DNA of 64,000 nucleotides from Burkholderiaceae bacterium (GTDB taxonomy: Bacteria; Pseudomonadota; Gammaproteobacteria; Burkholderiales; Burkholderiaceae_C), in the NCBI GenBank assembly GCA_019745555.1, contig JAIESX010000001.1, positions 124,001 to 188,000 of the forward strand, written 5' to 3'. Each line of letters begins with the position of its first letter. Position 1 is the stretch's first letter. A program made the translations under genes and the position numbers. Positions 1 to 13,993 of the stretch are shown here, one piece after another. The notes beneath the pieces were generated by a model. That model was given only the letters and a program-made list of their open reading frames with translations, was not told where the DNA came from and made no database searches.

Positions 1-376
1 CGAGGACGAAATCAAACGCCTCATCTACGAACCGTTGTAGGTCCGTGGCTTCGGCGATGTGCTGCATGCCAGGTGGCTTGGTACGATCAAACTGGTAGGT
101 TCGCCCCTCTATGATGTCGCCCTCCCAGACGGTGCGATCACCATAGGTGCAGTTATCCAGACCCGCGAGGATGGGATATACGGGGAAAAAGCCTCGCGAC
201 GAGAAGGCGGGGCTGGGTCCGCCTATCTCGACGCCTTGCTTACCGGCAAACAAGGCCTTGTTGTCGTTGAATGACGCGGCTTGGCGCGTCGCCAAACTCT
301 TCAGGCGAATTCTGATCGCATATGCGAAACCCGCAAGACCCCGGGCGCGCAGAATGCGGAGTGCCTTGGCAATCAT
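1..376 (-). CDS. Class I SAM-dependent methyltransferase-like protein, N-terminal part (runs off left edge)
   Basis: An open frame of 125 codons runs from an ATG at 376 to the left edge with no stop. The ATG overlaps the TGA of the upstream glycosyltransferase (ATGA), so the two are translationally coupled. Visible motifs are KALFAGKQGVEIGGPSPAF near residues 40-58, an LDNCTYGDRTVWEG stretch and HIAEATDL further on. This resembles the N-terminus of SAM-dependent methyltransferases found in surface-polysaccharide loci, where the EIGG segment begins the SAM-binding fold. The catalytic part lies outside the window. Assignment rests on motif memory, so substrate and exact family stay open. Confidence 0.6.
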   Translation of the reverse strand, partial: MIAKALRILRARGLAGFAYAIRIRLKSLATRQAASFNDNKALFAGKQGVEIGGPSPAFSSRGFFPVYPILAGLDNCTYGDRTVWEGDIIEGRTYQFDRTKPPGMQHIAEATDLQRFVDEAFDFVL

Positions 377-1275
377 TTCTGGATCAACCCACCATACTCG
401 CAGGCACCCATGCGATGACCCAGGCCGTCGCGAATGCCCAACATAAATGCTTTTAGTTTCTGGCGTCTGCGCTCCTCAAAGAGAAGCATCAACGCGGCCC
501 CGAACAGCAAGCGCAACAGCCGGCGTGCACACCAGTCCGGCTCGACGCGCCAGTACCGCGCGATCGTCACGATCGAGTTACGCGCGATGTAGTACTTGCG
601 GACCGGCACATGATTTGGCAGGCGTCCGAACAGCGGCAACCAGGTCCCGCCATCTTCGCCCACGCTGTGTTCCATGACTGGTTTTCGGCTGATAAGGATA
701 CGCGCACCATGCTTGCGTGCACGCAGACAGAACTCGTGATCGAGCTGGTCAATGAAGTAGTCATCTCGGAAACCCCCGAGACGCTCGGCAAAGACAGCGT
801 CGACTAGACAAGCGGACGTGATCACCGTCGTCTGCTCCAAGTACTCCCCAGGACCCCCCATCGGGACGCGGGTTGTCCCGTTGCGTGGGTCGTAGTAGTT
901 GCCCCCCACAACCACCGGCTGCGTCGCACAGCGGGCCTTGACTTGAAGCAAGGTTTGAACCATGTCAGCGTAGCAGCGACTATCTTGATCAAGCGTGACA
1001 ATCCAGCGGCAACCCCAAGCCAGTGCCTGCGCCAGGCCCTGATTGAGCGCGGCGCCAACGCCTAGATTGCGCCCGTTCTGGATCAGCCGGAATTTTTCTG
1101 CCCCTCCCGTGCCGAGGTCCAACGATGCTTGCTCTTTCGAATGCGGCGTGTTGTTCACGACGACCATCGCCTGAAACTGGGAGTAGAGTTTGCGCAACCG
1201 CGGGACAAAACCCGAATCCGGATGAAATGCGATGATGACGGCGCAAACAGATTCCGGCTCCGGCGCGGCGGTCAT
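373..1275 (-). CDS. Family 2 glycosyltransferase, rhamnosyltransferase type
   Basis: The 300-residue protein has a GT-A fold start (CAVIIAFHPD, residues 11-20), the NLGVGAALNQG nucleotide-sugar motif (70-80) and a TLDQDS metal-binding motif (94-99), a DxD variant typical of the rhamnosyltransferase branch of GT2. It probably transfers a sugar from an NDP-sugar to a lipid-linked glycan at the cytoplasmic membrane. The ATG at 1275 is preceded by a strong GAGGAGG ribosome binding site. It lies 70 bp downstream of another glycosyltransferase on the same strand and overlaps the methyltransferase that follows, so it belongs to a glycan operon. Sugar specificity cannot be read from sequence. Confidence 0.85.
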   Translation of the reverse strand: MTAAPEPESVCAVIIAFHPDSGFVPRLRKLYSQFQAMVVVNNTPHSKEQASLDLGTGGAEKFRLIQNGRNLGVGAALNQGLAQALAWGCRWIVTLDQDSRCYADMVQTLLQVKARCATQPVVVGGNYYDPRNGTTRVPMGGPGEYLEQTTVITSACLVDAVFAERLGGFRDDYFIDQLDHEFCLRARKHGARILISRKPVMEHSVGEDGGTWLPLFGRLPNHVPVRKYYIARNSIVTIARYWRVEPDWCARRLLRLLFGAALMLLFEERRRQKLKAFMLGIRDGLGHRMGACEYGGLIQK

Positions 1276-1345
1276 CGGTGACCTCCTCTATAACGCTTAT
1301 GCATAGATGGAGATCCAAGCTGGCAGCACTTCTTCATCGGTGTGC

Positions 1346-2455
1346 TCAGTTGTTGCGGCTTAGGTCCACGTATAGGTCCGCGAACCGGGCTGCGCAGTCA
1401 TCCCAGGTGCCGCAGGTTTCTCTGACCCATAGACGCGCGGCATCTCCAACGGTGGCATTGACCTCCGGCTCCTCGAGACGCGCAAGTGCAAGAGCAAAGG
1501 TCTGCGGGGAGTCGGCCAGAAAGCCTGTTCGGCGGTTGTCGATGATGTCGCGGTGGGCCGGGAGGTCGGAAGCGATCACTGGCAAGCCGGCAGCCATCAT
1601 CTCCAGGACCACCTGAGGTCGCCCTTCGTCATGGCGGCTCAGTGTAATGAGACCGCACGCCTCCGGAATCCAGTCCTGCAGCAGCGCAGCGGGATGCGTC
1701 GGCCCGTGGTAATGGACCCAGTCAGGCAATGTCAATGCCTCCTGCATCGGACCAAAGAGATGGAGCTCGCGCGCTCCATTGAACAGACCCGAACCCCAGT
1801 CGAAAAGATCGCCGATCTTCTCCCGGGTCAATCGCGCAACAACCAGCCAACGTTTCGGTCGGCCTGTCGGTGGCTGCAGCCGCTCCACGTCGAACCAGAT
1901 TCGATCGATGCCGAAGGGTACCGCCTGGACCCTGGCCACATCGCCAAAACGTTGTCGCAGTTCTGGCACCATCCACTCGGCATTCGGCGCCAGCACCGCC
2001 CGGCGTTGCCGTAAGACCCGGTGCAGCAGGGTGGCCATGCCCGGCAGACGCAGCAAGCCGAAATCCGTCCCTAGCACGCTGATCACGGCCGGGGTGCGCG
2101 TTCCCCACAAGGGCAAGGCGTTCTGTAGCCAGTTCACATGGACCACGGTAGTGGGTCTGCGGCGGTACGCACGATGCAGGCGGCACAACAGGCCCATCGC
2201 CGCCCACAATGCGGCGGGTTTGCTGCCGCGCAGCAGGTGAGCGATGCCACCACGTTGCGAGAGCAGCTGCAGCCAATTCCGATCCGCTGATGTTGCCACG
2301 CTGCTGACACCAGGCGGCAGCTCGCCCGGCGGTGCCCACAAGTCAAGCTGCAGCCCAGGGAGGCGGCTCAGCGCGGCTGTAAGGTTGTAGATGAAGCGCC
2401 CGCGCCAGTCTTGGCCGTCCTGCGGATACGAGGTGCTGGTCATCAGTACCTTCAC
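1346..2455 (-). CDS. Family 4/1 glycosyltransferase (GT-B fold)
   Basis: The protein has 369 residues if started at GTG 2455, which follows a GCGAGG ribosome binding site and lies 1 nt from the upstream stop. An ATG four codons later is an alternative. The N-terminus (VKVLMTSTSYPQDGQDWRG) is typical of GT4 enzymes. The C-terminal nucleotide-binding half carries EGRPQVVLEMMAAGLPVIA, the E-x7-E region that contacts the donor nucleotide, followed by a DLPAHRDI stretch. It is expected to be a retaining cytoplasmic or membrane-associated transferase in the same glycan pathway as its neighbours. Donor and acceptor are unknown. Confidence 0.82.
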   Translation of the reverse strand: MKVLMTSTSYPQDGQDWRGRFIYNLTAALSRLPGLQLDLWAPPGELPPGVSSVATSADRNWLQLLSQRGGIAHLLRGSKPAALWAAMGLLCRLHRAYRRRPTTVVHVNWLQNALPLWGTRTPAVISVLGTDFGLLRLPGMATLLHRVLRQRRAVLAPNAEWMVPELRQRFGDVARVQAVPFGIDRIWFDVERLQPPTGRPKRWLVVARLTREKIGDLFDWGSGLFNGARELHLFGPMQEALTLPDWVHYHGPTHPAALLQDWIPEACGLITLSRHDEGRPQVVLEMMAAGLPVIASDLPAHRDIIDNRRTGFLADSPQTFALALARLEEPEVNATVGDAARLWVRETCGTWDDCAARFADLYVDLSRNN

Positions 2456-2456
2456 A

Positions 2457-3344
2457 CTAATCGTCCTCGCGATCGCGGGTGTCGATGTTCTTGTAATGCA
2501 AGGCCGATATCTGTTCCGAGACAATGCCGATGAGGAAGGTCAGGATAGACGATATAAAGAGTAAGGCGCTCATATTCGTAAAGCGCCCGGTCGTGAGATA
2601 GGTGTAGAGGTAGTAGGCTAGCCCGGTGGCGAAAAATCCGCCGCTGATGGGAAGAAACAGCTTTTGCGGCGAGAAGAGCGTACCCACCTTGATGATAATC
2701 AGCAGAAATCGCACACCATCACGCACAGGATTGATATGGCTCACACCGCTGCTGCGCGGCGGGGCATGGATGGGCACATACGCGACGCTGTAGCCTGCCC
2801 GGAAAAAGCTCATGGTGATGGTTGTCGGATATGAGAAACCGTTGGGCAGAAGATAGAGGAACTGCCTAAAACGTTCTGCGTCCACCACACGAAAACCGGA
2901 GGTCAGATCCGCAATCGGCTGCATGACCATCCAGCTGGCAAAGCGGCTGAACAGATCGTTGGCCACGGCGCGATGGGCGCCAGCATGAGATCCTCGCTGG
3001 CGAGCGCCGACGACCATGTCATAACCCTGTTCGAACTGCGCCAGCAAACGACTGATGTCCTGAGGCTGATGCTGACCGTCCGCATCCATGAGAACCAGAG
3101 TCCGCCCCCTGGCCGCCCGAGCGCCTGTCTTGACAGCCGCACCATTGCCTTTGGAATAGGGATGCCTCACGATGCGAACCGCGAACTCCGCGCAGACCGC
3201 AGAGGTATCATCGGTCGATCCATCGTCGACGACCAGGATCTCGGCACCAGGCACTAACGCAAGCAATTGCGGCAACAGAGTACGCAAGCTTGACGCCTCG
3301 TTCCTGGCAGGAATGACGACCGACAGCTGGACGTATGAGCTCAT
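2457..3344 (-). CDS. Polyprenyl-phosphate glycosyltransferase-like GT2 with C-terminal membrane segments
   Basis: Starting at ATG 3344 the protein has 295 residues. Motifs are SVVIPARNEAS (8-18), DDGSTDDT (40-47) and DADGQHQP (87-94), the signature of DPM1/ArnC-like GT2 enzymes that load a sugar onto undecaprenyl phosphate. The C-terminus has two hydrophobic helices (around residues 230-285) and a charged tail, so it is membrane anchored. A longer frame reaching back to 3482 overlaps the upstream gene and is not needed. The start lies 22 nt after the upstream stop. It may supply a lipid-linked sugar to the adjacent GT-C-like membrane protein, which is an inference from order only. Confidence 0.85.
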   Translation of the reverse strand: MSSYVQLSVVIPARNEASSLRTLLPQLLALVPGAEILVVDDGSTDDTSAVCAEFAVRIVRHPYSKGNGAAVKTGARAARGRTLVLMDADGQHQPQDISRLLAQFEQGYDMVVGARQRGSHAGAHRAVANDLFSRFASWMVMQPIADLTSGFRVVDAERFRQFLYLLPNGFSYPTTITMSFFRAGYSVAYVPIHAPPRSSGVSHINPVRDGVRFLLIIIKVGTLFSPQKLFLPISGGFFATGLAYYLYTYLTTGRFTNMSALLFISSILTFLIGIVSEQISALHYKNIDTRDREDD

Positions 3345-3366
3345 GGGCGGGTTGGACAATGCGTCT

Positions 3367-5277
3367 TCACGGCTTGCCAATATTACCTGCTGCCAGTAAT
3401 TGCGCAAGCGTCTGGCGCTCCTCGGATGACAACCGGGTAGACCGCAATTCCAGTAGGAGCTGTCGTGCCTCCTCACGGTCATTGCCCAGCCATAGCAATT
3501 GGGCCCATTTGAGACGGTTGCTGGGCTCCCTTGGGTTCAACGCCAGGGAAGCGCTCAGTGCTTGCTTTGCGGCTGCCAAGTCTTTCTCCCGCAACCAAAG
3601 GTAATCCGCCAGCCAGGAGTAGAGCATCGCCTGAACCGCCACGCCCGTCTTCGGATTGCCCAATGCTGCCCGGAAAAGACTCTCCACCTGCTCCCGCCGT
3701 AGGCAATATGGGCCCGTAACTTCCGTCTCTTTCAGATGGAAAAGGACATTGCGGTCGCCGGGGGCAAACAGCGAGTGCCGCAGACGCGTTGTCAATTCAG
3801 CGAGTGCCGCTTCGTCAACCCCCTGGCCGGAGCGGCACGCCAGACCCAGCATTTCCAGCAAGGCCATCTTGAAGTTTGGATCCAGCGCGCTTGCTCGTTG
3901 CAGGTGTTCGTTTGCCATCTCATGGGCCATGGTTCCGGGCTGAGCTGCAGCAGGCAGATTCGCCAGGACCATGCCGAGGTTGTAACGGGAACGTGCCGAA
4001 TCCGGGTGGTGCTGTACTTCGGCCAGCGTGCGGCGCAACTCGTCACCATGCTGGTAGGCACGCAAGGCCGTCGTCACCGCATACACAAGCACGGCCAGTA
4101 GCGCTATACCAACCAGCATACGGGGCTGAAGTACCTCGCGTTCGACCCAACGCACCAGGATTGATATCAAGGCGAGTAGCAAACCCAGCAAGGGCAGGTA
4201 ATTACGATGCTCATGCACCAGCTCCAGCGGCAAGAGCGTGGATTCCAGGAGGTGACCGACCAAGAACCACGACAGGCCGAAAGCCACCAACGGCGAATTC
4301 CGGCGCAGATGCCAGATCAGCCATAGCACCCCAACCCAGGCCAGTACCGCTGGCGCTGTCGTCCACGGGTCGAACCACCCTGTAGAAATGGAAAAGTCGT
4401 CGTGATACAGGCCAAGGGCCGAACCGCGCGGCACAAGGGCCAGGCCAACATAGAACCAGAGCGCACGTGCTTCAGTGAGCATGCGCTGTGTGGCGTCAAA
4501 CGGACGTAAATCGTAGCCAGCCCACAACCACGAGGCGCCACCCAGCCCCAGATAGATCAGACCGCCCACGAGGACCGAGGTGACGGCGACCACATACGCT
4601 TTCCCGAAAGTATCCAGATGCCCGACCTGATCTCTTCGCAGCAACAACTCCCAGATGAGCACGAACAAAGGCAGGAGGAGCCCGGTCTCCTTGCTCAGGA
4701 TGGACAGGGGCCAGGCCAGGCCCCAGGCAAGTAGCATCCATGCGATTGCCATCTTGCCGGTGTGGCGGCGTGCCACCATGTGCAGCCAGAACGCCAGCAG
4801 CAGGAAAAGGGCCGAAAGACTGGTCATCCGCTGCACGACATGCAGCACGGGCAGCAGCTGCAGAGGGTGCAGCAGCCAGAGCGTGGTACCAGCGAGGGCC
4901 AGCCAGCGCGCCACCGACAGATTCTCCCCCTCCCGCTTTCTCAAGAACTCCCGCAAGATCGCGTAGACCAGAGCGCCACACAGCATGTGGACGAGCAAGT
5001 TGGTCAGCTTGTAAGTCCAAGGATGGAAGCCGCTGAAGTAGTGGTTGAGCGCAAAGCTCAGCTGTGCAATCGGGCGCCCGGTTGGACCTGCGCCTCCGCT
5101 GGACCAGGCCTGGACCAGCGCTTCCCAGCTGAGTTCCTTCATTTGCACACCTGGGGCCAGCAGGATGCTGGGCCCATCGTCAAAAAAGAAGCTACCGCCC
5201 AGTCCCGGCCAGTACACAGCGACCAGCAGAACGCCGAGGCACGAAAGAGCCCACCAGGTGGGTATACGCGTTGTCAT
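3367..5277 (-). CDS. Polytopic GT-C/TMTC-like membrane protein with C-terminal TPRs
   Basis: The protein has 636 residues from ATG 5277. An in-frame extension to 5457 would run through the pilA terminator and is rejected. The N-terminus has a membrane helix, then an acidic FFFDDGPS motif (30-37), GRPIAQLSFALNHYFSG and a YKLTNLLVH stretch. These resemble the TMTC/GT-C glycosyltransferases that use polyprenyl-linked sugars, where the periplasmic acidic pair is catalytic. About ten hydrophobic segments follow, then a soluble tail with TPR-like repeats (about 400-636). Because it lies directly downstream of pilA, a role in pilin glycosylation is plausible but inferred. Confidence 0.7.
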   Translation of the reverse strand: MTTRIPTWWALSCLGVLLVAVYWPGLGGSFFFDDGPSILLAPGVQMKELSWEALVQAWSSGGAGPTGRPIAQLSFALNHYFSGFHPWTYKLTNLLVHMLCGALVYAILREFLRKREGENLSVARWLALAGTTLWLLHPLQLLPVLHVVQRMTSLSALFLLLAFWLHMVARRHTGKMAIAWMLLAWGLAWPLSILSKETGLLLPLFVLIWELLLRRDQVGHLDTFGKAYVVAVTSVLVGGLIYLGLGGASWLWAGYDLRPFDATQRMLTEARALWFYVGLALVPRGSALGLYHDDFSISTGWFDPWTTAPAVLAWVGVLWLIWHLRRNSPLVAFGLSWFLVGHLLESTLLPLELVHEHRNYLPLLGLLLALISILVRWVEREVLQPRMLVGIALLAVLVYAVTTALRAYQHGDELRRTLAEVQHHPDSARSRYNLGMVLANLPAAAQPGTMAHEMANEHLQRASALDPNFKMALLEMLGLACRSGQGVDEAALAELTTRLRHSLFAPGDRNVLFHLKETEVTGPYCLRREQVESLFRAALGNPKTGVAVQAMLYSWLADYLWLREKDLAAAKQALSASLALNPREPSNRLKWAQLLWLGNDREEARQLLLELRSTRLSSEERQTLAQLLAAGNIGKP

Positions 5278-5292
5278 TCCACAAGCCCAATG

Positions 5293-5324
5293 AAAAAGCC
5301 CCTTGGCCAGAGACCAAGGGGCTT
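5293..5324 (-). terminator. Rho-independent terminator of pilA
   Basis: Perfect 11-bp stem (5296-5306 with 5314-5324, 7-nt loop) followed on the minus strand by a T5 tract. It lies 21 bp after the pilA stop and before the next gene, so it uncouples the highly expressed pilin from the glycan genes. Confidence 0.9.
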
Positions 5325-5344
5325 GCGACAAGACCGCTGGACGA

Positions 5345-5809
5345 TCAGAAGTCCTTGCAGGAGCTGGGACGGAACTTGGTTTCGACCGGGTTGGTACCGC
5401 CGCCGCAAGTCCAGACCACTTGACCCGTGGCGGTACTGGCATTGCCGCGCAGGACAATGGTCTTTTGTGCGGCAGCTGCCGGCAGACCCGACTGGGCGGT
5501 CGTGGTGGTGGTCACGACGATGTCACCCCGCGTTGCGTCGACGCCAGAATAATCGACGGACGCCACGTACTTGGAAGACTGGGGCAGAACGCCCATCGAA
5601 GCAGCCGACTTGTTCATGACACCGAAGTTCGCGAAAGCTTCGGACACCGCCGTACGGGCAGAGGAGCCCGCCAGGATCACTTCAGAGATCTTGGCACGGA
5701 CCATGTAGTCCTGATAAGCGGGCAGGGCCACAGCAGCCAGAATACCGATGATCGCAACCACGATCATCAGTTCGATCAGGGTAAAACCCTTTTGAATAGC
5801 ACGTTTCAT
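5345..5809 (-). CDS. pilA: Type IV major pilin PilA
   Basis: The 154-residue prepilin has a short basic leader (MKRAIQKG) cut by prepilin peptidase before [17 protein letters not shown]. The invariant Glu at mature position 5 and the hydrophobic assembly helix are present. Mature pilin is about 146 residues. Two cysteines near the C-terminus (in VWTCGGG and PSSCKDF) frame the usual disulfide-bonded D-region loop. The ribosome binding site AAGGAG is 6 nt before ATG. It is a single gene between a sigma-54-type promoter and its own terminator. The protein polymerises into the pilus fibre used for adhesion, twitching and DNA uptake. Confidence 0.96.
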
Positions 5810-6380: not shown

Positions 6381-9110
6381 ATGACCCTTCGGGAACGCGC
6401 CACAGCTACCACAGAATCCGCGCCTGAACGGCGGTCGACTGAGGACGAGACGGACCGCGCGCAAGCAGAACTGTTGCTTCAAACCGGCATGGCGCTTGAA
6501 CAGCAGGGGCATCTTGACGAAGCGCTGGATCACTACGGGCGTGCCATACAGTTGCAGCCGGGATTGGCCCGCGCGCATTTCAACAAGGGGAATATCCTGC
6601 TCGATCGGGGCGAGGCAGCAGCTGCGCTGGCTGCGTATCGAATCGCCCTGCAGCACAAACCCGAGTCTGCGGGGGCTCACTACAACATGGGCAACGCCCA
6701 TTTGCGCCTAGGCGATCCTCGAGCGGCGGTCGCGGCGTACGAGGAGGCGCTCCGGCTGAGGCCTGAGTTCATGGAAGCGCAAGTGGCACTGAGCGAGGGG
6801 CTTGCCTTGTGCGCCGCATCAGCCGAAGCAGCCTTCCAGCAAGGTCTGGCCGCCCAGGATCAGGGTCGACCAGATGCCGCGGAGGAACTCTACCGCCAGG
6901 CTCTGACACTTCAGCCCGACCATGTCTATGCCAACAACAACTTGGGCGTGCTCCTTTTGCACCAGCATCACGCCGAGGAGGCCGCCTGCTGTTTTCGGCA
7001 GGCTGCCACGGGATCCCCTGAGGATGGCTCCATTTGGCTCAACCTGGCAAATGCGCTGACTTTGCAGGGCGTTCATGAAGAGGCGCTGCGCGCCTGCGAG
7101 CAGGCCGTCGACCTGATGCCTGCCCATGTTCAGGCACTCGTCCAGCGAAGCATCCTGCTGAACGCTCTGGGCCGTCGCCGCGACGCTGCTGCCAGCTACC
7201 AGCAGGTACTGAGCATCGCGCCAGATCACACCGAAGCTCACCTGAGCCTCAGTGGAATCTTGATCGAGTTGAATCAGTTGGAAGCAGCTGAACAATCATG
7301 TCGCCAGGTACTCGCGCGGGAACCTGACAACGCACGCGCTTACAACCACCTTGGCGTGGTTTTCAAGAAAAGGCATCAGCTGGAGGAAGCGGTAGCCTGT
7401 TTTCGCAAGGCACTGACTATCCTCCCGGATAGCGTCGAGGCTGAAGTGAATCTTGGCTCGACGCTATATGGAATGGGGCAACTGGATGCCGCGGCAACTT
7501 CCCTGCAACGAGCTCTGGCGATGGCCCCAGACTCCGCTGCGGCCCACTCCAACCTAGGCAATCTCCTGCTGGATCAAGGGCAGCCTGCCTTGGCTGAGTC
7601 CCATTACCTGAAAGCACTTGAGCTCGATTCCAGTCTGGCCATCCCTCACAACAATCTAGGCTCGATCTACGCACGCACCAATCGTCCGACGGACGCGGCA
7701 GCTCGTTATCGGCAGGCCATCGCCAACGATCCTGGTTACGTCGACGCCTATGCCAATCTGGGCGGCGTTCTCAAAGACTTGGGTCAAGTTGAGGAAGCCC
7801 TGAACATGATGATCCGGGGACTTGAGATTGACCCCGAGTCCTTGCTGTGCCACAACAACCTGTTGTTCATCCAGAACTATCTGGCGGAGCAGTCTGGCGA
7901 GCAGCTGCTGGCCGATGCGCGCCGCTTTGGCGAGGTGGCTGCCAGGCTGGCCAAGCCCTACACCGATTGGCCCAATCCACCCGATCCCGCACGGCCCCTG
8001 CGTGTAGGACTGGTCTCAGGTGATCTGGGCCATCATCCGGTCGGCTTCTTTCTCGAAGGGGTGCTGAGCGAACTCACGACCCGGGCTGGCGATCGCCTGG
8101 CGTTCTTTGCCTATTCTCATCGCCTGGAAGAAGACGCCACCAGCCAGCGCCTGCGCGCGTGCTGCCAAGGCTGGCTCAAGACACTGGGGCTGAGCGACGA
8201 AGCGCTGGCGCGGCGTATTCGCGACGATCGCATCGACATCCTGATCGATCTGGCCGGCCACACGAGCGGCAACCGGTTGGCCATGTTTGCCTGGAAGCCC
8301 GCACCGGTGCAGGTGAGCTGGCTGGGCTACTTCGCCACAACCGGCGTTGCGGCCATGGACTACTTCCTGGCCGACCCCTGGACGCTGCCCCCCGAGCAGG
8401 AGCCTTTCTTCACCGAGCAGGTCTGGCGCCTGCCCGAGACGCGCCTGTGCTTCACGCCGCCCGACTCCCAGGCACAGGTGAATGTCCTGCCTGCGCTTGC
8501 GCGCGGCTACGTCACTTTCGGCTGCTTCAACAACCTGAGCAAGATGAACGATGCCGTGGTGCGGCTCTGGGCCCAGGTGTTGCAGGCCGTGCCAAACAGC
8601 CGCTTGCTGCTCAAGTACAGGCAGCTCGCTGACGCTTCCGTGCGCCAGCGCACGGCCGAGCGTTTTGCCTTGCACGGCATATCCGCTCAGCGCCTGGTGT
8701 TTGAAGGCCACAGCTCGCGCTCGGACTACCTCGCCGCCTATCATCAGGTGGACATTGCGCTGGACCCCTTCCCCTTCCCCGGGGGCACCACCACCGTGGA
8801 GGCGCTGTGGATGGGCGTGCCGGTGCTGACGCTACAGGGCGATCGCTTCCTGGCCCGCCAGGGGGTCGGTCTTCTCATGAACGCCGGCCTGCCCGAATGG
8901 GTCGCCGCCGATGCCCAGGGCTATGTGCGCCGCGCCAGCGCACACGCCAGCGATCTGCCGGCCCTGGCCGCCTTGCGCTCACGCTTGCGACAGCAGGTGC
9001 TCGCCTCCCCCATCTATGACGCCCCACGCTTTGCGCAGCACTTCGAAACCGCACTGCGCAGCATCTGGCAACTATGGTGCCAAGACAGGGTCGGCTCACA
9101 CCGGGAATAG
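6381..9110 (+). CDS. TPR-repeat O-GlcNAc transferase-like protein (GT41/SPINDLY), copy 1
   Basis: The 909-residue protein has about thirteen tandem TPR-like repeats (residues about 28-485) followed by a GT41 catalytic domain (about 491-900) that contains LRVGLVSGDLGHHPVGFF, with the His-His-Pro motif of the OGT N-catalytic lobe, and FPFPGGTTTVEALWMGVPV in the donor-binding C lobe. It should transfer a sugar, classically GlcNAc, to Ser/Thr of cytoplasmic protein targets selected by the TPR superhelix. The ATG follows GAAGGACG. The next GT41 gene begins 3 bp after the stop. Nucleotides 7851-9079 are identical to 10329-11557 in copy 2. Bacterial relatives often modify flagellin or pili; the target here is unknown. 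Confidence 0.88.
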   Translation: MTLRERATATTESAPERRSTEDETDRAQAELLLQTGMALEQQGHLDEALDHYGRAIQLQPGLARAHFNKGNILLDRGEAAAALAAYRIALQHKPESAGAHYNMGNAHLRLGDPRAAVAAYEEALRLRPEFMEAQVALSEGLALCAASAEAAFQQGLAAQDQGRPDAAEELYRQALTLQPDHVYANNNLGVLLLHQHHAEEAACCFRQAATGSPEDGSIWLNLANALTLQGVHEEALRACEQAVDLMPAHVQALVQRSILLNALGRRRDAAASYQQVLSIAPDHTEAHLSLSGILIELNQLEAAEQSCRQVLAREPDNARAYNHLGVVFKKRHQLEEAVACFRKALTILPDSVEAEVNLGSTLYGMGQLDAAATSLQRALAMAPDSAAAHSNLGNLLLDQGQPALAESHYLKALELDSSLAIPHNNLGSIYARTNRPTDAAARYRQAIANDPGYVDAYANLGGVLKDLGQVEEALNMMIRGLEIDPESLLCHNNLLFIQNYLAEQSGEQLLADARRFGEVAARLAKPYTDWPNPPDPARPLRVGLVSGDLGHHPVGFFLEGVLSELTTRAGDRLAFFAYSHRLEEDATSQRLRACCQGWLKTLGLSDEALARRIRDDRIDILIDLAGHTSGNRLAMFAWKPAPVQVSWLGYFATTGVAAMDYFLADPWTLPPEQEPFFTEQVWRLPETRLCFTPPDSQAQVNVLPALARGYVTFGCFNNLSKMNDAVVRLWAQVLQAVPNSRLLLKYRQLADASVRQRTAERFALHGISAQRLVFEGHSSRSDYLAAYHQVDIALDPFPFPGGTTTVEALWMGVPVLTLQGDRFLARQGVGLLMNAGLPEWVAADAQGYVRRASAHASDLPALAALRSRLRQQVLASPIYDAPRFAQHFETALRSIWQLWCQDRVGSHRE
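7851..9079 (+). repeat. 1,229-bp direct repeat, copy A
   Basis: Encodes the catalytic domain of the first GT41 gene (codons 491-900). I find no mismatch with 10329-11557 (offset 2,478 bp). Identity starts sharply at CACAACAACC and ends sharply within the last codons. Confidence 0.95.
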
Positions 9111-9113
9111 ACC

Positions 9114-11564
9114 ATGGGGCTGCTTGATTCCTTCTTCAGGCGTGTACCCACCGCTTCAGGCGGGGACCATGCTTCGTCCATGCGCAGCCAGACCGTCGCA
9201 GAGAGCAAGCTCGAAGAAGGCATGCGCATGGAGCGCGAGGGTCGTCTTGATGAGGCGCTGCATTGTTACGATGCGGCTATTGCGCTGGCGCCTGATCTGG
9301 CGCGGGCACATTTCAATCGCGGCAACATCCTGCTCGACCGGGGTGATGCCTTTGAAGCTCTTCCTTCCTATCGCAAGGCGATCGAGCTCAAGCCCGATTC
9401 GGCAACAGCACACTACAACCTAGGCAACGCCTATCTGCAGCTCGGCAATCTGCAAGACAGTGTCACCGCACTGCGCACGGCAATCACCCTCAAACCCGAC
9501 TTTCTCGACGCCCATATCACGTTGGGGCTGATCCACGGCAAGCTCGGACATGAGCGCGAAGCGCAGCTGTCGTTTTCGAATGCCACCAGGATCAATGCCG
9601 ATTCTGCCGAGATCTATTGTCGAGTTGCTTCCTGCTGGTTGGAAGCAGGCTTCGAGCAATTTGCGATCCACAATGTTCAGAGGGCACTCTCCTTGCAGCC
9701 TGACATGGTTGATGCCTTACGTCTGTGGGGACTTGCATGTCAGCGCCTGAAGCACACTGAGGATGCGATTGAGTATTTCCGTCGTGGCTTGTCGATGCAG
9801 CCCGATAACGCAGAACTTCTCAACCATCTTGGTACGGCCTTTCGAGACTCCGGGCGACATGACACCGCCATAGACTGCTATCGCAGGGCATTGGCAATCA
9901 ATCCCGATCTTCCCGTCGCGCACTACAACCTGGGGGAGTCACTGCAGAGTCTGGGACAGTCCGAAGATGCCATCAGTTGTTATCAACGGTGTCTGGCGCT
10001 CGGGCAAAGTCATTACGATGTCTACATCAGTCTTGCGGCGGCTCTGCGTGATCTAGGGCGCGACAATGAGGCGCTCACGCGCTTTGAGCAGGCGATAGCG
10101 CTACAGCCGGATAACCCCGCCGGCTATATCCACAGAGGCGTCACGCTCGCGATGCTCGGCCGCCTCCAAGAGGCGCAGGAAGATTATCAGCGTGCGCTGC
10201 TGCTGCAACCCGACAATGCTGATGCCCAGCTGAGCATGGGTGTGGTCCTCAAGGATCTGGGAGATGTGTCCAATGCACTGACTTATGTGCAGCGCGCATT
10301 GGAGATTCAATCCGACTATGTGCTTGCGCACAACAACCTGTTGTTCATCCAGAACTATCTGGCGGAGCAGTCTGGCGAGCAGCTGCTGGCCGATGCGCGC
10401 CGCTTTGGCGAGGTGGCTGCCAGGCTGGCCAAGCCCTACACCGATTGGCCCAATCCACCCGATCCCGCACGGCCCCTGCGTGTAGGACTGGTCTCAGGTG
10501 ATCTGGGCCATCATCCGGTCGGCTTCTTTCTCGAAGGGGTGCTGAGCGAACTCACGACCCGGGCTGGCGATCGCCTGGCGTTCTTTGCCTATTCTCATCG
10601 CCTGGAAGAAGACGCCACCAGCCAGCGCCTGCGCGCGTGCTGCCAAGGCTGGCTCAAGACACTGGGGCTGAGCGACGAAGCGCTGGCGCGGCGTATTCGC
10701 GACGATCGCATCGACATCCTGATCGATCTGGCCGGCCACACGAGCGGCAACCGGTTGGCCATGTTTGCCTGGAAGCCCGCACCGGTGCAGGTGAGCTGGC
10801 TGGGCTACTTCGCCACAACCGGCGTTGCGGCCATGGACTACTTCCTGGCCGACCCCTGGACGCTGCCCCCCGAGCAGGAGCCTTTCTTCACCGAGCAGGT
10901 CTGGCGCCTGCCCGAGACGCGCCTGTGCTTCACGCCGCCCGACTCCCAGGCACAGGTGAATGTCCTGCCTGCGCTTGCGCGCGGCTACGTCACTTTCGGC
11001 TGCTTCAACAACCTGAGCAAGATGAACGATGCCGTGGTGCGGCTCTGGGCCCAGGTGTTGCAGGCCGTGCCAAACAGCCGCTTGCTGCTCAAGTACAGGC
11101 AGCTCGCTGACGCTTCCGTGCGCCAGCGCACGGCCGAGCGTTTTGCCTTGCACGGCATATCCGCTCAGCGCCTGGTGTTTGAAGGCCACAGCTCGCGCTC
11201 GGACTACCTCGCCGCCTATCATCAGGTGGACATTGCGCTGGACCCCTTCCCCTTCCCCGGGGGCACCACCACCGTGGAGGCGCTGTGGATGGGCGTGCCG
11301 GTGCTGACGCTACAGGGCGATCGCTTCCTGGCCCGCCAGGGGGTCGGTCTTCTCATGAACGCCGGCCTGCCCGAATGGGTCGCCGCCGATGCCCAGGGCT
11401 ATGTGCGCCGCGCCAGCGCACACGCCAGCGATCTGCCGGCCCTGGCCGCCTTGCGCTCACGCTTGCGACAGCAGGTGCTCGCCTCCCCCATCTATGACGC
11501 CCCACGCTTTGCGCAGCACTTCGAAACCGCACTGCGCAGCATCTGGCAACTATGGTGTGCCTGA
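9114..11564 (+). CDS. TPR-repeat O-GlcNAc transferase-like protein (GT41/SPINDLY), copy 2
   Basis: The 816-residue paralogue has about eleven TPR-like units (residues about 35-400) and a GT41 catalytic domain (about 406-815) that is identical to copy 1. Its TPR half is related but clearly different, for example FNRGNILLDRG aligns with FNKGNILLDRG while later repeats diverge. The N-terminus starts MGLLDSFFRRVP and has no signal peptide. The two genes form an operon with a 3-bp gap. Different TPR arrays with one shared catalytic module suggest two target ranges and the same chemistry. It converges on the GspE-like gene, leaving only 17 bp between stops. Confidence 0.88.
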   Translation: MGLLDSFFRRVPTASGGDHASSMRSQTVAESKLEEGMRMEREGRLDEALHCYDAAIALAPDLARAHFNRGNILLDRGDAFEALPSYRKAIELKPDSATAHYNLGNAYLQLGNLQDSVTALRTAITLKPDFLDAHITLGLIHGKLGHEREAQLSFSNATRINADSAEIYCRVASCWLEAGFEQFAIHNVQRALSLQPDMVDALRLWGLACQRLKHTEDAIEYFRRGLSMQPDNAELLNHLGTAFRDSGRHDTAIDCYRRALAINPDLPVAHYNLGESLQSLGQSEDAISCYQRCLALGQSHYDVYISLAAALRDLGRDNEALTRFEQAIALQPDNPAGYIHRGVTLAMLGRLQEAQEDYQRALLLQPDNADAQLSMGVVLKDLGDVSNALTYVQRALEIQSDYVLAHNNLLFIQNYLAEQSGEQLLADARRFGEVAARLAKPYTDWPNPPDPARPLRVGLVSGDLGHHPVGFFLEGVLSELTTRAGDRLAFFAYSHRLEEDATSQRLRACCQGWLKTLGLSDEALARRIRDDRIDILIDLAGHTSGNRLAMFAWKPAPVQVSWLGYFATTGVAAMDYFLADPWTLPPEQEPFFTEQVWRLPETRLCFTPPDSQAQVNVLPALARGYVTFGCFNNLSKMNDAVVRLWAQVLQAVPNSRLLLKYRQLADASVRQRTAERFALHGISAQRLVFEGHSSRSDYLAAYHQVDIALDPFPFPGGTTTVEALWMGVPVLTLQGDRFLARQGVGLLMNAGLPEWVAADAQGYVRRASAHASDLPALAALRSRLRQQVLASPIYDAPRFAQHFETALRSIWQLWCA
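10329..11557 (+). repeat. 1,229-bp direct repeat, copy B
   Basis: Identical to 7851-9079 in my reading, including third codon positions. It codes for residues 406-815 of the second GT41 protein. Confidence 0.95.
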
Positions 11565-11581: not shown

Positions 11582-13993
11582 TTACTTGATGCAGACCTGC
11601 CGGACCTGCTTGAGGTCGGTCATGCCTAGCATGATCTTCTCCATCCCGTCCATCTTGAGGGTCCGCATGCCGCTTTCCACGGCAGCCGCAAAGATCTCGG
11701 CGACACGGGCGCGCTCCTGCACCAGCTTCTTGATGCGGTCATCGGCGATCAGCAGTTCGTGCAGACCCAGACGGCCTTTGTAGCCAGTGTTGTTGCATTT
11801 CTCGCAGCCCACCGGCTTGTAGAAACGCAGCTTGCCGTCCTCGCCGTAGTTGACCACCCATTCCTCGTAGAGCTTCTGGGCTTCGCCACTGAAATCTGCC
11901 TTCCAGGCCTTCGTGTTTTTCAGTTCTTCGGCATATTCGGAGATAAAGGCGTTGATCTCGGAGGTACTGGGGTTGTAAGGCTGCTTGCAGTCGCACAGCT
12001 TCTTGGCCAGTCGCTGGGCCAGGATGCCCAGCAGGGCGTCGGCGAAGTTGAACGGGTCCATGCCCATGTCCAGCAGGCGCGTGATGGACTCAGGTGCGGA
12101 GTTGGTGTGCAGGGTGGAAAACACCAGGTGACCGGTGAGCGAAGCCTCCACGCCCATGGACACGGTTTCCTTGTCACGTGATTCGCCGACCATGATGATG
12201 TCGGGATCGGCACGCAGGAAAGCGCGCATGATCAGCGCAAAGTCGATGCCGGCCTTCTTGTTGATCTGGACCTGGCGCAAACCGCGCTGCGTGATTTCCA
12301 CCGGGTCTTCAGCGGTCCAGATCTTGGTGTCCGGCGTGTTGAGGAATTTCAGGATGGAGTGCAGCGTCGTCGTCTTGCCGGAGCCTGTCGGACCGCAAAC
12401 ATAGAAGAGGCCGTAGGGCTTGCTGACCGTGCTCTCCAGCCGCTCACGATTGTGTGGTGTGAGACCGAGCTTTTCGAGCGGGATCGGCTCACCCGAGGCC
12501 AGGATGCGCATGACCACGTCTTCGACGCCACCGGCCGAAGGAATCGTCGCGACCCGCAGCTCGATGTCGAGCGGACCGTACTTCTTGAACTTGATCTTGC
12601 CGTCCTGCGGCTTACGGCGCTCAGAAATATCCAGATCACACATGATCTTGAGACGGGTGACCATGGCCTGGCGGAAATGCGCCGGCACCTCGATATAGGG
12701 CATCAGGGTGCCATCGACACGGAAACGGATGCCGGTCTTGAGCTTGCCAGGCAGGGGTTCAATGTGGATATCGGAGGCCTTCTGGTTGTAGGCGTCGACG
12801 ATGACCTTGTTGACGAACTTCACCAGTTCGTTGTCAGCCGCCGCAGACTCCAGGGAGTCGTCGTTCTCGTCGTCGCTGCCCAGGGGGCCGCCCATGTCGG
12901 CGAGCATCTGGTCGATGGAGGTGCCGTCCACGACGGCGCCGAACAGCTGTTCCAGCGTCTGCTCGAACTCGGTCTGGGTTGTGACCCTGTACGCAAACTT
13001 GTGGATGCGTGGAAACACCTGTGGCACCACACGGGCACCCCGCGTCGCCTCCGGATCCAGGCACATGATGACCAGGCCCTCGGGCGACTCTTCGAGCGGG
13101 ATCCAGCCCTGTCCTTCGGTGAACTCGCGCTTGAGCGAACCATGCAGCATCTCCGAGCGGATACGCCCGGGGTTGAAAGGCTCGTAGGGCACACCAAAGA
13201 ACTTGGCCAGTGATGGCCCGATCTGCGAAGGCGTCAGCTGATGGCGGCTCATCAGCAGATGCTCCACGGGACGCCCTTCGTTGCGGGCTTCCTGCACGCA
13301 GTCCTGCAGCTCGGTACCGGTGATCAGACCGTCGGCCACCAGACCGTCGTACTTGGTCGCGCGGATACGCTGCGGTTCATCGGTCTTGTGCATGCGAGTA
13401 CGGATGGCGGTGGCCAGCGTCTTGCAGAGCTGGACCACGCCCTTGACATCCAGCTCGGAAAACGGCTGGTCGGCCTTGTTGTTGATGACCTGCAACACAC
13501 CGTACAGATTGCCGCCCTCGATGATGGGCGAAACCAGCATCTGCTTGGTACGGTAACCCGAGCGCTTGTCCACTTCCTGGAGAAAAGCGAGCTGCGGATG
13601 AATCTGCTTGAGCGCCTCCACGTCATAGACATCGGCCAGGTTGAGCAGCTTGCGGCTGAATGCCACGTAGCCGGCGATGCTCTGCGGGCTGATGGGCAGC
13701 TTCAGTTCGCGGCTGCTGGTCAGGCCGGTCTTGATCTTGGAGACGATGGAAGTCTCGTCGTCGCTCACCGCATAAAGCGTCAAACGATCTGCATTGAAGA
13801 GCTTGCAGATCTCCGGGCTGACTTCGAGCATGATCTGCTCGACATGTTCGGTCTCGTGGATGCGCAGCACCACCTGCTTGAGCTGGCGCACGAACAGGGC
13901 CTCGAAGGTCTTATCCTGCTTGTCGCTCGTGGGCTGCTGGGAATCGCGGAAGCCGGGATCGCCCCCGCCCGGCGGTTTCATGACGGCACTCAT
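11582..13993 (-). CDS. GAF-domain GspE/PilB-family secretion ATPase
   Basis: The 803-residue protein has a GAF-like sensor domain (about 40-205), a MshEN/GspE N-terminal-like domain (about 215-365) and a AAA-type secretion ATPase with Walker A GPTGSGKTTTLHS near 534, an AEDPVEIT Asp/Glu box, FSTLHTN, and a C-terminal zinc region (CDCKQPYNP and CEKCNNTGYKGRLGLHELL). Such ATPases power pilus extension or type II secretion. Here it is not next to pilC/gspF genes but ends an operon of PP2C, FHA and MBL-fold proteins. The start overlaps the preceding stop by 4 nt (ATGA). The first MshEN motif lacks a clear RLGxxL, so c-di-GMP binding is doubtful. Confidence 0.88.
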   Translation of the reverse strand: MSAVMKPPGGGDPGFRDSQQPTSDKQDKTFEALFVRQLKQVVLRIHETEHVEQIMLEVSPEICKLFNADRLTLYAVSDDETSIVSKIKTGLTSSRELKLPISPQSIAGYVAFSRKLLNLADVYDVEALKQIHPQLAFLQEVDKRSGYRTKQMLVSPIIEGGNLYGVLQVINNKADQPFSELDVKGVVQLCKTLATAIRTRMHKTDEPQRIRATKYDGLVADGLITGTELQDCVQEARNEGRPVEHLLMSRHQLTPSQIGPSLAKFFGVPYEPFNPGRIRSEMLHGSLKREFTEGQGWIPLEESPEGLVIMCLDPEATRGARVVPQVFPRIHKFAYRVTTQTEFEQTLEQLFGAVVDGTSIDQMLADMGGPLGSDDENDDSLESAAADNELVKFVNKVIVDAYNQKASDIHIEPLPGKLKTGIRFRVDGTLMPYIEVPAHFRQAMVTRLKIMCDLDISERRKPQDGKIKFKKYGPLDIELRVATIPSAGGVEDVVMRILASGEPIPLEKLGLTPHNRERLESTVSKPYGLFYVCGPTGSGKTTTLHSILKFLNTPDTKIWTAEDPVEITQRGLRQVQINKKAGIDFALIMRAFLRADPDIIMVGESRDKETVSMGVEASLTGHLVFSTLHTNSAPESITRLLDMGMDPFNFADALLGILAQRLAKKLCDCKQPYNPSTSEINAFISEYAEELKNTKAWKADFSGEAQKLYEEWVVNYGEDGKLRFYKPVGCEKCNNTGYKGRLGLHELLIADDRIKKLVQERARVAEIFAAAVESGMRTLKMDGMEKIMLGMTDLKQVRQVCIK

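Follow-up and report, generated by a model that had tools for sequence, protein, structure and literature searches.

Next to each other in a type IV pilus locus lie two TPR-GT41 genes that carry the same catalytic half, identical over 1,229 bp, joined to different TPR halves. The two genes are probably ancient duplicates whose catalytic half was recently homogenised by gene conversion, giving a pair of TPR-targeted transferases with a common head. The pair lies in the window, i.e. the whole stretch of 64,000 nucleotides of a Burkholderiaceae bacterium contig analysed here. It is not settled how protein O-glycosyltransferases of the GT41 family find their targets, and natural pairs from the same cell, in which the head is identical or nearly so and the targeting half differs, are ready-made controls with which one can ask whether target choice lies in the TPR half alone. 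The pair is also an example, from a bacterial enzyme family, of domain-limited concerted evolution.

The identical catalytic block and the histories of the two gene halves

Gene 1 (6381..9110, forward strand) and gene 2 (9114..11564, forward strand), which starts 3 bp past the gene 1 stop, are open frames encoding proteins of 909 aa (P0001) and 816 aa (P0002). In both proteins many Pfam TPR models matched the N-terminal half above cut-off, and the C-terminal half matched Pfam Glyco_transf_41 with 157 bits each (cut-off 25). The first-pass annotation had described two catalytic repeats, identical down to their silent sites and sharply bounded, downstream of TPR-coding halves that are merely related, and this description was confirmed. 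Base-by-base comparison of the forward-strand segments 7851..9079 and 10329..11557 gave 0 differences over 1,229 bp, without the scattered differences that would have spoken against it, and 409 of 409 third codon positions were equal. In gene 1 the block extends from codon 491 into codon 900 of 909, and in gene 2 from codon 406 (H406 of P0002) into codon 815 of 816. In 50-bp windows compared in register and ungapped, identity was 54% before the block (from 7800) and 32% after it (from 9100). The TPR-coding halves defined by the Pfam matches and the base comparison (6381..7850 and 9114..10328, both forward) were not homogenised, their longest common exact run being at most 12 bp. In a hand-counted alignment with the plant protein SPINDLY (SPY), N408 of P0002 aligns with SPY N436, a member of the substrate-binding asparagine ladder located inside the connector (residues 431-482) that joins the TPRs to the catalytic domain (PMC9715652, available part). 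The block therefore corresponds to nearly the whole connector and both catalytic lobes, without the TPRs.

To place this event in time, both genes were compared with relatives, as had been proposed. The genome G010, of the same genus as the window, also has a tandem pair, flanked by the same neighbours as that of the window. At the protein level, the catalytic halves of G010 show 68.5% identity to each other and 71.5-74.0% to the window catalytic half. Regarding the TPR halves, gene 1 is collinear with the G010 upstream gene over 479 aa (44%), and gene 2 matches the G010 downstream gene at 63% of 235 aligned positions, or at 47% in the best BLAST stretch; the downstream gene has a much shorter TPR half, and TPR lengths vary among relatives. 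In a TPR tree of 14 rows, built on the N-terminal TPR sequence with clades assessed by the AU test, gene 2 grouped with the G010 downstream gene (support 100/99) and the two window genes were rejected as a clade (p 1.4e-4), while the grouping of gene 1 with the G010 upstream gene was neither supported nor rejected (p 0.43). By contrast, the catalytic tree rejected both the grouping of gene 2 with the G010 downstream gene (AU p 3.1e-5) and that of gene 1 with the upstream gene (AU p 5.1e-4). The G010 genes themselves, considered as a possible case of older conversion, grouped with support of 89/86 in a 22-row tree and 62/37 in a 14-row tree.

Judging from these trees, the TPR half of gene 2 is the ortholog of that of the G010 downstream gene. 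Since the two halves of gene 2 differ in history, the conversion is placed after the split from G010, and the conflict between the TPR and catalytic trees argues that one old duplicate received its catalytic half from the other after that split. The initial proposal of conversion or a domain-swap duplication was thus upheld in part: recent conversion has strong support and a recent whole-gene duplication is disfavoured, the TPR orthology of gene 2 being older. Inside a bounded tract the window copies are closer to each other than to their orthologs, with older orthology outside it, which is the pattern of concerted evolution.

Conversion tracts in other GT41 arrays

To determine whether this pattern recurs, 101 of 124 records were surveyed, the other 23 being dropped as duplicates of other stretches or as unwanted (L044). 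They contained 178 modules in 97 sequences, and in 46 of these sequences two or more modules, 102 pairs in total, lay within 6 kb on the same strand. Exact common runs of at least 98 bp were found in 8 pairs, in 8 of the 46 loci, a proportion that is not a population frequency because the regions were chosen for closely spaced GT41 matches among the matches listed. The longest runs were 1229 bp in the window, 770 bp in L037 (G024), 729 bp in L093 (G414), 718 bp in L038 (G033), 200 bp in L092 (G356), 120 bp in L091 (G289), 101 bp in L064 and 98 bp in L095 (G363), the modules of L064 and L095 being cut by contig ends. No exact run of at least 98 bp was found between neighbouring modules in the 38 remaining loci. 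As a control, modules were compared between loci: only 1 of 15,629 pairs reached 98 bp, the next longest run was 82 bp and the 99.9% quantile was 50; between the sister genomes G356 and G414 the run was 74 bp. The single between-locus pair above the threshold, with an exact run of 126 bp, joins L106 and L107, two contigs of the same genome (G710).

The tract is best delimited in G356 and G414, single-contig sister genomes with three TPR-GT41 modules in one chain, the chains being 92% identical over 6.1 kb. Informative sites were defined as columns at which the four sequences of modules 1 and 2 from the two genomes split two versus two. Up to column 595, 120 of 124 such sites grouped the modules by position, 3 by genome and 1 was crossed. 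Between columns 645 and 1284, all 51 informative sites grouped them by genome, and the last 6, from column 1341, did so by position again. On these site patterns, a bounded tract in the later catalytic domain is converted separately in G356 and in G414, and the copies here too are closer than orthologs inside the tract, with older orthology outside. In G289, whose architecture is like that of G356 and G414, modules 1 and 3 are the most similar overall (87.6%) and a patch of 98-99% joins modules 1 and 2. In G033 (L038), GC3 of module 2 is 0.41 in the TPR half, 0.52 in the first half of the domain and 0.78 in the second half, and module 1 has a GC3 of 0.77; this rise to the level of module 1 points to module 1 as the donor. 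Taken together, these results show, at the sequence level, that the same kind of conversion occurred in other tandem or fused GT41 modules.

In several of these arrays a chain of two to four TPR-GT41 modules is encoded by one open frame, 1,217-2,608 codons long (L090 from G209, L089 from G299, L091, L092, L093, L088, L037 and L038), and three-module chains are present in two single-contig genomes.

A change in base composition accompanies the window block, whose GC3 is 0.80-0.82 compared to 0.63-0.64 in both TPR halves; the G010 pair has a GC3 of 0.67-0.73 throughout, with no step. The window step could be due to biased conversion or to a donor from outside. Across the survey, the catalytic minus TPR step averaged 0.085 in modules of homogenised loci (n=18, unconverted modules included) and 0.025 in other modules (n=151), a difference with a rank test p of 3.4e-4 computed on modules that are not independent. 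For this reason GC-biased conversion was not built on.

Within-genome paralogs more alike than orthologs, silent sites included, have been reported in a survey of concerted evolution in prokaryotes that covers 26 genes and whose authors favour gene balance (PMC6053082, available part). Unlike the cases in the part of that survey available, the window conversion affects only one of the two protein halves; neither 'glycosyl' nor 'transferase' appears in the survey text. Among the papers listed by searches of the open-licence literature, we recognised no report of conversion between GT41 genes and found no description of such domain-limited concerted evolution or of TPR-GT41 chains with two to four heads. 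The ingredients are thus known, and repeated domain-limited conversion in GT41 arrays appears to be new.

Neutral conversion, assembly and duplication as alternative explanations

The first-pass annotation had further suggested that selection keeps the transferase homogenised while the TPR array diversifies, a suggestion that the data do not require. Conversion needs similar DNA and the TPR halves are too different, so neutral conversion of the alignable half is sufficient to give the same picture. Twelve donor-pocket positions, some of them alignment gaps, were compared in 47 strand-wise arrays. The pocket was identical in all modules of 4 arrays (the window, L034, L036 and L037) and in modules 1 and 2 alone in L089, L090, L092, L093 and L110; in L038 the nine C-lobe positions were identical and the N-lobe positions were not, and in the remaining arrays the modules differed at one or more positions. 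With all modules identical in 4 of 47 arrays, a common donor pocket fails as a rule for arrays. We consider the chances about even that conversion is real and purely neutral, reflecting adjacency and the fact that only the catalytic DNA is alike enough, with no functional link. Such an explanation is consistent with a window tract that ends where similarity ends, with tract starts that vary from locus to locus, with the 38 of 46 arrays that have no recent conversion tract and with pocket residues that differ in many arrays. It accords less well with G010, in which both pockets equal those of the window although the copies are only 68.5% alike, a hint of constraint in these sequences.

We regard as unlikely an assembly artefact, whether by double use of a single catalytic sequence or by the smoothing of two similar copies to a single version. 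A DNA search of the window genome found the segment twice, the sole other match being 130 bp at 69%, and a protein search found one further GT41 gene, more distantly related (35%). The genome, in 57 contigs, has a completeness of 88.6%, and neither a 16S rRNA nor matches to the rve domain were found in it, from which we infer that it is probably a MAG. An exact repeat of 1.2 kb is hard to resolve with short reads, and the perfect identity of the window copies could reflect consensus smoothing of very similar copies. However, smoothing requires copies that are already nearly identical, so that conversion is implied anyway. A false second copy is unlikely because each copy lies in an open frame of its own with its own syntenic flanks and because each G010 counterpart bears a catalytic half. 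Moreover, the pattern recurs elsewhere with real differences between copies, in two cases in single-contig genomes. A plasmid origin was likewise rejected: a megablast search of 72,556 plasmid records gave no match to 6381-11564, and the window genome has no further near copy of the segment.

Finally, a whole-gene duplication that took place recently in the window lineage, with one TPR half later replaced or rapidly altered, would also yield identical catalytic halves with different TPRs and would fit the variable TPR lengths, including the short TPR half of the G010 downstream gene, but it is highly improbable, and was discarded, given that the pair is already present at this location in G010, that the gene 2 TPR half is orthologous to that of the same-position G010 gene and that the window genes are rejected as a TPR clade. 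Conversion between old duplicates is thus the reading retained below.

Predicted function and genomic neighbourhood of the pair

The best-scoring solved structure for P0002 was SPINDLY. In a hand-mapped alignment, SPY H495, K665 and T748, which have roles in catalysis (PMC9715652, available part), are kept as H467, K636 and T718 of P0002, and SPY N661 is also conserved. Both the domain model and the catalytic residues thus assign the proteins to GT41, the family of OGT, SPINDLY and HMW1C. By contrast, SPY Y744, described on the fucose side, is replaced by Phe at P0002 position 714, so that the Tyr of SPINDLY-type O-fucosyltransferases is lacking, and SPY S496 is replaced by Pro; ApHMW1C carries Phe at the position of Y744 (PMC9715652, available part). 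Because of these two replacements, a GDP-fucose donor and SPINDLY chemistry cannot be assumed. The initial label of O-GlcNAc-transferase-like was correct at the level of the GT41 family, whereas the best solved match is an O-fucosyltransferase.

Like the window proteins, SPINDLY comprises TPRs, a connector and two catalytic lobes; it is a plant GT41 protein O-fucosyltransferase, whereas the window genes are bacterial and in tandem (PMC9715652, available part). P0001 and P0002 both have the architecture of their best model, FlmG from Caulobacter crescentus, a modular protein with an N-terminal TPR half followed by a C-terminal GT-B half, in which the TPR half, and not the GT half, binds flagellins (PMC7591256, available part). 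FlmG modifies a filament protein while this is still in the cytoplasm, and by analogy the same may apply to the window proteins. However, the FlmG target is flagellin, whereas the window pair adjoins a pilin gene; furthermore, the available part of PMC7591256 describes no duplicated pair with a common head such as that of the window.

These comparisons suggest the following scheme. An old duplication would have produced two adjacent TPR-GT41 genes at the type IV pilus locus; the conflicting trees indicate that the catalytic half of one was then overwritten by that of the other through recent gene conversion, and the TPR halves would have stayed apart, their DNA being too different to pair. By analogy with FlmG and SPINDLY, P0001 and P0002 are each probably cytoplasmic, with a TPR superhelix that would pick the target protein and a GT41 head that would add a sugar to Ser/Thr. 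As both proteins carry the same head, a common donor preference is expected after conversion, and the two might presumably transfer the same donor sugar to two targets or sites. The target might be pilin or another pilus protein; pilin is our guess from the neighbourhood. More generally, and this we find rather doubtful, arrays at pilus or flagellar loci could be modular glycosylation systems in which conversion spreads one head and its donor while each TPR half keeps or gains a target. If so, sugar identity would evolve as a unit across copies and target choice module by module.

The window pair sits between a type IV pilin gene (5345..5809, reverse strand; Pfam Pilin above cut-off), which is the candidate target, and a gene for a PilB-like assembly ATPase (803 aa) that carries a GAF domain at its N-terminus (11582..13993, reverse; below the NCBIfam PilB cut-off). 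Both neighbours are syntenic, as are a 696-codon open frame beside the pilin (3367..5457, reverse) and a run of GT2, GT4 and GT2 glycosyltransferase genes recognised by domain matches (373..3482, reverse). A pilin relative was found in 9 of 35 loci tested, and pilin and pilB relatives together in 4 of 35 (G010, G439, i.e. Polaromonas JS666, G247 and Polaromonas CF318); in one further MAG they are split, one on each of two contigs (L062 and L063). Neither a pilin nor a pilB relative was found in any of the six other homogenised loci tested, which are short stretches and comprise all but L095. Two of these loci, L037 and L092, adjoin MotA and MotB as well as sugar-nucleotide enzymes, and L092 also adjoins CheZ and an FlhB-family gene; flagellar genes next to sugar-nucleotide enzymes fit flagellin glycosylation. 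The neighbours of L038 that were tested are neither pilus nor flagellar genes.

Other candidate pilin modifiers at the window locus are one of the GT2 proteins, with NCBIfam matches to polyprenyl-phosphate sugar synthases below cut-off, and the product of the 696-codon frame, for which no Pfam or NCBIfam match was found. The latter appears by eye to be membrane-like with a repeat-like C-terminal part, and it is kept in syntenic loci at 52-62% identity. The PilB-like GAF ATPase has a similar length in syntenic loci, and beyond its gene lie genes for metallo-beta-lactamase-fold, FHA and PP2C proteins.
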